Shown here: positions 61,608-64,000 of the stretch, in pieces
Position numbering within the stretch: the stretch's first letter is position 1
Layout of the letters: every line of letters starts with the position of its first letter
Assembly: GCA_024235715.1 (NCBI GenBank)
Contig: JACKLW010000009.1
Location: forward strand, 176,540 to 240,539
Length of the DNA: 64,000 nucleotides
Direction: 5' to 3'
Source of the DNA: Accumulibacter sp.
GTDB taxonomy: Bacteria > Pseudomonadota > Gammaproteobacteria > Burkholderiales > Rhodocyclaceae
The notes under the pieces: model-generated
The model's database searches: none
Seen by the model: the letters and a program-made list of their open reading frames with translations, nothing else
Told to the model about the DNA's origin: nothing
Made by a program: the position numbers and the translations under genes

Positions 61608-62417
61608 ATGAAGCTGCGGGTCGCCACCTACAACATCCACAAAGGCGTCACCGGCATCCGCGGGCGGCCGCGCATCCACGACGTGCGGCAGGCGCTGCAG
61701 GCGATCGATGCCGACATCGTCTTCCTCCAGGAAGTCCAGGACCGCAACGAGCGACTCGTGCACCACCCCGACCAGCCGCTGGGGACGCAGCTCGAGTTCC
61801 TGTCGTTCGGCGCCTACGCGCATCGCGCCTACGGCATGAATGCCGTCTATCCGCACGGCCATCACGGCAACGCCATCCTCTCGCGCCACCGCATCATGGA
61901 CTTCACCAATCATGACATCTCGGACCACGTGCTCGAGAAGCGCGGCCTGCTGCATGCCGTGATGCGTCTCGGCCGTGGCCGGGGGACCGAGGTGCACCTG
62001 ATCTGTCTGCACCTCGGCCTGATCAAGCGCAGCCGCATCCGCCAGGCGACCTTTCTGGCCGACCTGGTGCAGCGCGAAGTGCCGGCCGACGCGCCGCTGA
62101 TCATCGCCGGCGACTTCAACGACTGGCAGCAGCGCGTCGATGGCCTGCTGCGCACCCGCCTCGGCGTCGAGGAGGTCGCCGTCGCCGCCAGGTCCGCATC
62201 GCGTGCCAAGACGATGCTCAACTGGCTGCTCACCTGGCGCAGCGGCAAGCATGCGGGCGCCGGCGTCTCGCGCACCTTCCCCAGCTTCGCCCCCTGGCTG
62301 ACGCTCGACCGCATCTACGTGCGCGGCTTCGAGGTGCTCGACATGCACGTGCCGAACGGGCTCGCCTGGGCGCGTTGCTCGGATCATGCGCCGCTGATCG
62401 CGGAGCTGGAATTGTGA
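61608..62417 (+). CDS. Endonuclease/exonuclease/phosphatase family hydrolase
   Basis: This is a 269-residue EEP-fold protein. The N-terminal V-A-T-Y-N-I-H-K-G-V, the metal Glu in F-L-Q-E-V-Q-D, G-D-F-N-D-W and the final C-S-D-H-A-P-L all fit DNase I-like metal-dependent phosphodiesterases or phosphatases. Substrate unknown. ATG 61608 lies 34 bases after the lipoprotein gene. Its stop TGA overlaps the GTG of the FGE-fold gene. Confidence 0.88.
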   Translation: MKLRVATYNIHKGVTGIRGRPRIHDVRQALQAIDADIVFLQEVQDRNERLVHHPDQPLGTQLEFLSFGAYAHRAYGMNAVYPHGHHGNAILSRHRIMDFTNHDISDHVLEKRGLLHAVMRLGRGRGTEVHLICLHLGLIKRSRIRQATFLADLVQREVPADAPLIIAGDFNDWQQRVDGLLRTRLGVEEVAVAARSASRAKTMLNWLLTWRSGKHAGAGVSRTFPSFAPWLTLDRIYVRGFEVLDMHVPNGLAWARCSDHAPLIAELEL

Positions 62418-63196
62418 GGAGTGCAGCTACGCTTGGGTCTGGGATTGGCGGTACGCAGGCGGACGGACCGGCTGCGCACGCACAGCGGACAATTCTCTTG
62501 CCCGCACTCGACTGGGTCGAGATCCCCGGTGGCGATTTCATCTATCAGGAGGGGAAGAAGCGCAATCTGCCGACCTTCCACATGGCGCGCTATCCGGTCA
62601 CCAATGTGCAGTACCAGACGTTCATCAAGGCCGGCGGATATCGGGATGAGAGCTGGTGGGAGAATCTTGTGCGGCCTGAGACGCAAGTACCACGATGGCC
62701 GCAGGGCAATCGACCGCGGACGAATGTCAACTGGTACGAAGCAGTGGCTTTCAGCCGCTGGCTCAGCGCGCAGCTCGGCTACGAAGTCCGGTTGCCAACC
62801 GAGGAAGAATGGGAGCGGGCAGCTCGCGGGCGGGTTGGTCGCCAGTATCCCTGGGGCGACCGATACGAATCGGGCTCCGCCAACATTGATGAAAAGGCAG
62901 CCTACAGCGGGCAGTGCTATCTAAAGCAGACGATCGCGGTCGGCGTGTATCCACACGGGGCGTCGGCTGAAGGGGTACTCGATCTGGTTGGCCACGTCTG
63001 GGAATGGTGCCTCAACAAGTATGAGCAACCGGAGCGCATCGTGGCTGACGGCACTGAGGCCAATCGCGTGTTGCGTGGCGCCTCGTGGCACAGCGACTCA
63101 AGCCTTGCGCGCGGCTCCACTCGCGACCGGTGTCCGCCTGGCGGCAGGTCCGTCAACTTTGGGTTTCGGCTGGTTTCGTCCGCCCCCATTGCTTGA
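62414..63196 (+). CDS. FGE/SUMF1-fold (C-type lectin-like) protein, candidate DGR target
   Basis: This 260-residue protein has a formylglycine-generating-enzyme-type fold: L-D-W-V-E-I-P-G-G-D-F, Y-P-V-T-N-V-Q-Y, L-P-T-E-E-E-W-E-R-A-A-R-G, Y-P-W-G-D-R-Y, D-L-V-G-H-V-W-E-W-C, V-L-R-G-A-S-W and G-F-R-L-V-S-S-A. The Cys of catalytic FGE after the R-G-G-S-W motif is absent, so it is probably a binding module. The first 35 residues look like a chance leader; GTG 62414 overlaps the previous stop. The segment between W and G-F-R-L-V differs almost completely from its inverted paralogue at 63545, while the flanks match. Confidence 0.8.
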   Translation: MRSAATLGSGIGGTQADGPAAHAQRTILLPALDWVEIPGGDFIYQEGKKRNLPTFHMARYPVTNVQYQTFIKAGGYRDESWWENLVRPETQVPRWPQGNRPRTNVNWYEAVAFSRWLSAQLGYEVRLPTEEEWERAARGRVGRQYPWGDRYESGSANIDEKAAYSGQCYLKQTIAVGVYPHGASAEGVLDLVGHVWEWCLNKYEQPERIVADGTEANRVLRGASWHSDSSLARGSTRDRCPPGGRSVNFGFRLVSSAPIA

Positions 63197-63239
63197 CAGC
63201 TGTTCACTGCCGACCGCCGCGTAGCAGTAGTCGGGAATC

Positions 63240-63518
63240 TCAGAACACGAAGGGCCCAAGGTAGTGTTCGCGCAATCGCGCCACGTCTGCAAAACGGACG
63301 TGGTCGATCCAGCCGCGCAGGTTGGCGTCAAACCCGCCAAAACTGATCAAGCCCAGTCGGCGGTCCGCCTGAATCACCCTGCGGCTCTTGACGCGGCGAT
63401 GCGTCGGAAAGACGACGAAGCCCAGCCACGGGATGCCGTGGGTCACGGGGACTATCTGCACACAGCCCTCGTTGAGGCGCTGGCGAAATTGCGCCTGCCG
63501 CTCCTGGATGCCGGCCTT
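63240..63518 (-). pseudogene. C-terminal remnant of a reverse transcriptase (DGR-type)
   Basis: The open tail reads Q-F-R-Q-R-L-N-E-G-C, then P-V-T-H-G-I-P-W-L-G-F-V-V-F-P-T-H-R-R-V and L-R-G-W-I-D-H-V-R-F-A-D-V-A-R-L-R-E-H to a TGA at 63240. This pattern, with a G-I-x-W/F-L-G-F-x-V-F-P-x-H-R segment followed by a G-W-I-x-H-V-R-x-A-D helix, is the C-terminal end of reverse transcriptases, notably those of diversity-generating retroelements. The catalytic palm is absent: the frame is closed by TGA at 63519-63521 and the FGE-fold gene begins at 63545. It lies between two FGE-fold genes. Confidence 0.7.
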
Positions 63519-63544
63519 TCAGGAAGAACTTGGTTTGCCCAATG

Positions 63545-64000
63545 CTAACTCGACGCGCGAGAGTGAACGAGGGCTGACGACACTATCCGAAAACCGCTTA
63601 GAGAATTCCGGTAGTCAGGCCTGTTCGAGCTACGCCTCGATCCGAGCGTGCCGACAGGAAGATTTCTCCACGAGCCGCCACGCAAAGCGCGCGATTCGCC
63701 GCTGGTATCCGCGTTGACTTCTTCGGTGTGCTGATACTTGTTCAGGCACCATTCCCAGACGTTGCCTGCCAGATCAAGCACCGCTTCAGCCGATGCGCCA
63801 TGTGGATATACGCCGACGGCTGTCGTCTGCTTGAGTGTCCAAACTCCACCCGTTGCTCGCGTTTCGTTGATGTTTGCGTAGCCCGATTTGTAACGATCGC
63901 CCCAGGGATACTCGCGACCATCGCGTCCGCGAGCCGCACGCTCCCATTCTTCCTCGGTTGGCAGTTGCACTTCGTAACCCAGCTGCGCGCTCAGCCACCG
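63545..64000 (-). CDS. FGE/SUMF1-fold protein, candidate DGR target (5' end outside window)
   Basis: This is the C-terminal ~151 residues of a second FGE-fold protein; the frame runs off the right edge. It shares with the gene at 62414 R-W-L-S-A-Q-L-G-Y-E-V, T-E-E-E-W-E-R-A-A-R-G-R, Y-P-W-G-D-R-Y, A-V-G-V-Y-P-H-G-A-S-A-E, V-W-E-W-C-L-N-K-Y and L-R-G-G-S-W. It then diverges for 24 residues of equal length (R-N-L-P-V-G-T-L-G-S-R-R-S-S in the first half) and rejoins at G-F-R-I-V-S-S-A. A further nine residues, L-V-H-S-R-A-S-S, follow. No catalytic Cys follows the R-G-G-S-W motif. Confidence 0.78.
   Translation of the reverse strand, partial: RWLSAQLGYEVQLPTEEEWERAARGRDGREYPWGDRYKSGYANINETRATGGVWTLKQTTAVGVYPHGASAEAVLDLAGNVWEWCLNKYQHTEEVNADTSGESRALRGGSWRNLPVGTLGSRRSSNRPDYRNSLSGFRIVSSALVHSRASS

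Follow-up and report, generated by a model that had tools for sequence, protein, structure and literature searches.

Two FGE-fold genes around a reverse transcriptase remnant in Accumulibacter: a very probable degenerate diversity-generating retroelement

Does the pair of FGE-fold genes facing a reverse transcriptase (RT) tail at the end of an Accumulibacter contig belong to a diversity-generating retroelement (DGR), and if so, is this DGR alive, rearranged or dead? The analysed window is a stretch of 64,000 nucleotides, positions 176540–240539 of contig C9 (240,539 bases), and its end is the contig end, with no sequence beyond; the assembly comprises 4.14 Mb in 25 contigs, at a completeness of 90.5%. 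Region 62414–64000 of the window is, very probably, a dead or degenerate DGR locus in which the reading frames of the receptors are still open.

Anatomy of the locus and its relatives in the genus

FGE1 (62414–63196, plus strand) is a short stand-alone FGE/CLec-fold gene of 260 codons with a GTG start, which overlaps the stop of an upstream endonuclease/exonuclease/phosphatase-like gene (61608–62417), and it appears to be a former DGR target. It carries the putative former variable region VR1 (63089–63160, plus strand), 24 codons bounded by LRGASW and GFRLVSSA, and its C-terminus, SSAPIA, matches that of its relatives. FGE2 (63545–64000, minus strand) represents the C-terminal 151 codons of a second FGE/CLec-fold target, the 5' part being cut by the contig end. 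Its putative former variable region VR2 (63596–63667, minus strand) also has 24 codons at the position equivalent to VR1, while beyond SSA the frame closes with nine codons (LVHSRASS and a stop) that stand in place of the relatives' usual ending. The two genes are convergent, with the RT tail (63240–63555, minus strand, upstream border approximate) between them, which corresponds to roughly the final 100 codons of an RT of DGR type. The initial annotation had described two convergent FGE-fold genes, 24-codon blocks of equal length and an RT tail, and re-examination confirmed all of them. In alignment, VR1 and VR2 occupy the position of the variable regions in the intact DGR loci of the genus.

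The RT remnant covers 101 of about 340 residues and possesses an in-frame stop (63519–63521) and a 27-base gap near 63347–63354 relative to the RTs of its relatives. It matches PHROG 1423 “Reverse transcriptase” (E = 3e-7), with no match in Pfam or NCBIfam. Its identity reaches 69% to L029 and 68% to L028, and is 52–69% to RT 3' ends of the same genus that adjoin template/variable-repeat pairs with adenine-specific changes. Related full RTs contain IGNLTSQ, the SQ motif of DGR RTs (PMC3521204, section 8). The proposal that the tail is nearer to DGR RTs than to group II intron RTs held: the DGR RT of the L059 locus of the same genus matches it at 57% identity (E = 3.3e-23), whereas the group II RTs of the window's genome match the L059-locus query at 29%, over other residues. 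These group II RTs, of one kind, are the only two RVT_1 matches in the assembly; the two copies, with equal score, lie at C5:905435–906052 and C10:103219–103836.

In DNA alignment to L056–L058, the remnant runs on the minus strand from about 63555–63582 down to 63240. Its first 30 or so bases on the RT side align weakly, so that both this border and the deletion junction (63548–63582, minus strand) are approximate. At the junction the end of the FGE2 variable region is fused to a point of the RT close to the catalytic motif, and FGE2 passes directly from the one into the other with about 30 bases between. Since only these 30 bases could house them, the template, the accessory gene and the RT core are gone from the locus, irrespective of any sequence past the contig end. 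The template repeat is absent from the window locus in alignment to the intact loci, and two Avd-like queries that match the intact loci do not match the window. Thus, the locus lacks the full-length RT, template repeat and Avd-like gene of a functional DGR and retains what is expected of a degenerate one, a DGR-related RT remnant and 3' variable regions in CLec/FGE-fold genes.

Matches to the RT tail were found in 16 of 61 genomes (its own included), all of them from the window's genus, at 29 places in total, most of which sit in FGE–RT loci; the collections compared contain one genome per species, and the comparison covered the surroundings of the other 28 places. The usual intact layout is an FGE target, the template, an Avd-like gene on the opposite strand and the RT, which another FGE target faces. 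Convergent targets are therefore ordinary, and the idea of a rearranged DGR, put forward in the initial annotation, was rejected. Over the 29 places, RT coverage is full in 11 (321–348 of about 340 residues), truncated or internally deleted in 16 (35–282) and interrupted by contig edges in two. The window, with 101 residues, is one of 16 loci out of 29 in which the RT core is lost, in a sample recruited by the RT tail that leaves loci having lost the tail uncounted. The least truncated of these 16 are L063 (282) and L064 (254); L070 and L071 represent an identical RT in two genomes.

Importantly for the origin of FGE1, this gene, the spacer and the RT tail are collinear with L058 and L090, and FGE1 falls inside a DGR-target clade of 15 rows (support 100/95). 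Four loci, L058, L062, L065 and L082, have lost the RT core, while their template is kept and their variable regions show 0–4 non-A changes. In L058, which lies in a genome (G010) assembled as a single contig, the RT has an internal deletion, the template looks intact and the two targets have 1 and 4 non-A changes; this may reflect a loss that happened very recently, or supply from another RT in the same genome (L073).

The Pfam FGE-sulfatase profile scores 158 bits on FGE1 and 91.5 bits on FGE2 (profile positions 106–254). A fold model of FGE1 (62489–63193) reached a pLDDT of 95.5 from 68 sequences, after 53.7 in a first model from 12 sequences. The nearest solved structures are EgtB and FGE, with the DGR protein TvpA (2y3c) at rank 47 (Foldseek E = 1.8e-13, phmmer E = 2.2e-10, 20% identity in the structural alignment), and FGE1 is accordingly modelled as an FGE-type CLec protein. 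TvpA of Treponema denticola is, like FGE1, an FGE-fold CLec variable protein, although the organism and the locus layout differ.

The arrangement resembles that of the clade 5A DGRs of Dore et al. (2024, PMC10907252), in which a short, CLec-only FGE/CLec target is paired with a long one, as in L088 and L058 and apparently in the window. These DGRs also have a MoxR-like ATPase nearby; in L088 and L058 a single gene separates a MoxR-like AAA ATPase gene from the long target downstream, which bears an N-terminal extension without a predicted domain. By layout, the class of the window would fit clade 5A. In contrast to the clade 5 DGRs of multicellular bacteria described in the same text, the window is without RT core, template and accessory gene, no donor RT was found, and its variable regions have drifted. 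Dore et al. propose, as a hypothesis, a role of clade 5A targets in conflict systems, as sensors of antigens; by analogy we adopt the products of FGE1 and FGE2 as putative sensors, which are presumably still expressed.

Drift and adenine signature of the variable regions

FGE1 and FGE2 share 5 of 24 amino acids inside the block and 88 of 119 outside it (Fisher p = 1.5e-6); no 24-codon stretch wholly upstream of the block falls under 11/24 identity. Differences at codon positions 1 and 2 are enriched in the block, with 33 against 14 at position 3, compared to 38 against 49 outside (p = 0.004). Our recount agrees with the earlier counts of 20 of 24 codon pairs differing at position 1 or 2 and of seven third bases shared in the run of codons 13–20. 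The reading of shared third bases as a departure from ordinary drift did not survive: over the whole block third bases agree in 10 of 24 codon pairs, compared with 66 of 111 upstream, where 15 of 104 eight-codon runs share at least seven, so that the seven-of-eight run is not unusual. With 14 of 24 third bases differing, third-base sharing as a sign of recent activity was likewise rejected.

In loci with a full RT, 8 of 10 variable-region pairs within a locus have 0–1 differences among their 24 third positions; the two exceptions (6–7 differences) involve one drifted target of L073, a full-RT locus in which one target has 7 non-A changes. The 14 differences between VR1 and VR2, set against these values, indicate that diversification stopped long ago. 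L058, L065 and L082, which lack the RT core and keep the template, show 0–1 differences, while other loci reach 10 (L088), 14 (L075) and 11 (L142); an exception is L119, where just the RT tail is left and the template was not found, yet the pair differs at one third base. The window pair thus represents old, drifted variable regions that do not have the fresh adenine-only pattern. Outside the block, FGE1 differs from its nearest relative L088 with dN 0.18 and dS 0.66, and the FGE open frames are under purifying selection outside the variable regions.

The adenine signature itself occurs in the genus. The full-RT loci L059, L069, L070, L099, L101 and L111 have template–variable-region pairs with no non-A changes in 63–69 sites, whereas 9–23 of 24–30 A sites are changed. 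The template of L058, from the single-contig genome, is NNNAANARASQRNRNHPDNRNDNVGFR; alignment of the window blocks to this sequence needs no gaps. Taken one by one, the two blocks give weak signals against this template: changes fall in VR1 on 17 of the 23 A sites and on 22 of the 70 remaining sites (p = 4e-4), and in VR2 on 13 and 22 sites of these two classes (p = 0.03). With the L111 template VR2 gives p = 0.22, and in the window's genome a control FGE gene, L086, presumed not to be a DGR target, reaches p = 0.009 with one template out of three. We also pooled five regions picked for a common ARGS-like core, namely VR1, VR2, the two regions L088 a and b, and L089. The 23 A columns of the L058 template average 3.04 different bases in this set and the 70 other columns 1.70 (p = 2.9e-9), and the excess holds within codon position 1 (p = 7e-4) and position 2 (p = 6e-4). 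The test relies on a relative's template, as none was found of the class to which the window belongs, and by this measure variation concentrates at template adenines in the five-region class and weakly so in VR2 alone. At the level of the gene class, the 24-codon blocks thus appear by comparison of sequences to be former DGR variable regions. As a side observation, the L089 record (JAPUFC010000090.1) is titled a Mesorhizobium MAG and bears an Accumulibacter-type MoxR/FGE target locus, probably through a binning error.

Loss of the mutator and the competing explanations

We suggest that the ancestral locus comprised, in minus-strand order, the long target FGE2, the template, an Avd-like gene on the opposite strand and the DGR RT, facing the short FGE1. 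The RT would have made copies of the template RNA that were error-prone at adenines, and these copies would have replaced the 3' ends (VR1 and VR2) of both targets, altering the ligand-binding face of two putative sensors; such mutagenesis presumably acted in this very lineage. A deletion would then have taken the template, the accessory gene and the RT core, leaving the last 100 or so RT codons, which decayed further, while VR1 and VR2 would since have drifted along with the rest of both genes. The degraded DGR considered in the initial annotation is supported by the homology of the RT tail, the position of the blocks and the loss of template, accessory gene and RT core.

A different outcome, also raised there, is a degenerate but live locus whose targets a DGR RT and template at another place in the genome continue to diversify. 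Precedents exist in print: Pseudogulbenkiania has distal targets alongside mutated RTs (PMC3521204, section 14), in Thiohalocapsa PB-PSB1 diversification continues at degenerate loci (PMC10907252, sections 5 and 10), and the four core-less loci of the genus with kept templates point the same way. However, neither a DGR RT core nor an accessory gene turned up at other places in the assembly (90.5% complete), extending to the genome the earlier remark that neither a template repeat nor an RT core was in view. Template-like patterns gave no match assembly-wide (one pattern with up to one mismatch, the second exact), in a search that misses some real templates, such as that of L069, and whose second pattern has at least one match in 12 of 28 genus genomes; the missing 10% or so of the genome could contain a template or RT. 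The third-base divergence of VR1 and VR2 also speaks against continued supply, and such service in trans is very improbable. An assembly artefact that hides an intact DGR could be suspected because the contig ends 430 bases further on and because template/variable-region repeats break assemblies of DGR loci. Yet the RT remnant also bears a stop and a gap, the third positions indicate long inactivity, and 15 other loci of the genus have differing RT truncations, one of them (L058) in a single-contig genome, which leaves this explanation highly unlikely.

Little probability also belongs to the view that FGE1 and FGE2 are ordinary FGE paralogues in which positive selection drove rapid change of the ligand-binding loop, the RT scrap next to them being unrelated. 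Non-DGR FGE genes do vary at the same loop, the control gene gave a low p value with one template, and the third positions drift as in normal divergence. Nevertheless, the scrap sits at the exact place of the RT in intact loci, in collinear order with L058 and L090, FGE1 belongs to the DGR-target clade, and the column test over five regions is far from chance. A phage origin of FGE1 was rejected too, on sparse and low-identity matches of its protein: 16 of 50,697 phage records, all under 60% identity, and one viral contig at 31%.

The degenerate DGR locus is thus preferred, and other traces were sought in the same genome. An nSTAND1–FGE fusion (C8:230634–231272; L084:8614–10953, minus strand) contains a DGR-like region and clusters with DGR targets (98/91), and no RT was found in the 18 kb examined around the gene; it is possibly a third former target. 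The FGE gene of contig C7 (L085) was dropped as a fourth, since its C-terminus reads as the end of an ordinary FGE protein, with a change of frame. The N-terminal part of an L088-like long target was not found in the assembly, which means that the missing half of FGE2 is not there either.

Degenerate DGR loci with missing or pseudogenised machinery, and Accumulibacter as a bearer of multiple related DGRs, are already described in PMC10907252, and the window represents a well-preserved late stage of decay. In the DiGReF paper (PMC3521204), DGRs with inactivated RTs also have a truncated RT beside an FGE target, but keep the template and adenine-only changes, indicating recent loss, whereas the window has neither. 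Its authors expect random changes to accumulate in an inactivated DGR, and the window shows this accumulation.

A related lineage with a conserved former variable region

A short FGE gene with 87–100% identity is present in 5 of 28 genus genomes (L091, L092, L093, L094 and L109), at about 5.9–6.7 kb of the records, except for L092, where it lies at 3.4–4.2 kb. Past about 0.9 kb the flanks differ between most records, and the 7.8–12.7 kb examined showed no sign of an RT tail, template or Avd. By Nei–Gojobori counts, which are rough on 24 codons, the 24-codon region of this lineage has dN 0–0.10 and dS 0.31–1.04 in 10 of 10 pairs. The same region has dN 0.27–0.51 and dS 0–0.46 in nine DGR-associated pairs (both loci with a full RT in three of the nine), and dN 0.61–1.32 and dS 0.85–3.55 in pairs with the window. 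These rates suggest that a former variable site is now fixed under purifying selection, the receptor being apparently locked after the loss of the mutator. This does not imply locking of the window pair.

One can speculate that DGRs serve as transient affinity maturation, in which loss of the RT and template fixes a good binder that selection retains; the window would then stand after the shutdown and the L091 lineage at the end point, a scheme that we hold tentatively and consider somewhat less probable than its opposite. In Roux et al. (PMC8144416), diversification is balanced with purifying selection within populations. A former variable region conserved between species was not recognisable in the literature searched, a search whose scope excluded most subscription papers and preprints, and the locked L091-type receptor lineage is perhaps newer than the published DGR decay.

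The genus offers a dated series, from a full RT, through RT loss with a fresh template match and the loss of all parts with drifting regions (the window), to a conserved former variable region. This series makes it testable what becomes of hypermutated receptors after the loss of their mutator and what a fixed binding site recognises. If the interpretation is true for the related gene, such systems may be a temporary route to a good receptor.

In phylogeny, the L091 lineage is a clade (100/100) within the 15-row clade that holds FGE1 of the window, for which support is 100/99 in a 37-row tree. The lineage may be sister to the non-frozen Accumulibacter targets instead of lying inside them, since an AU test did not reject its position as sister to the other Accumulibacter rows (p = 0.48). 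The tree that excludes it from the DGR-linked Accumulibacter and Methylococcaceae-type rows was rejected (p-AU 0.003), both groups having been defined after the first tree was inspected.
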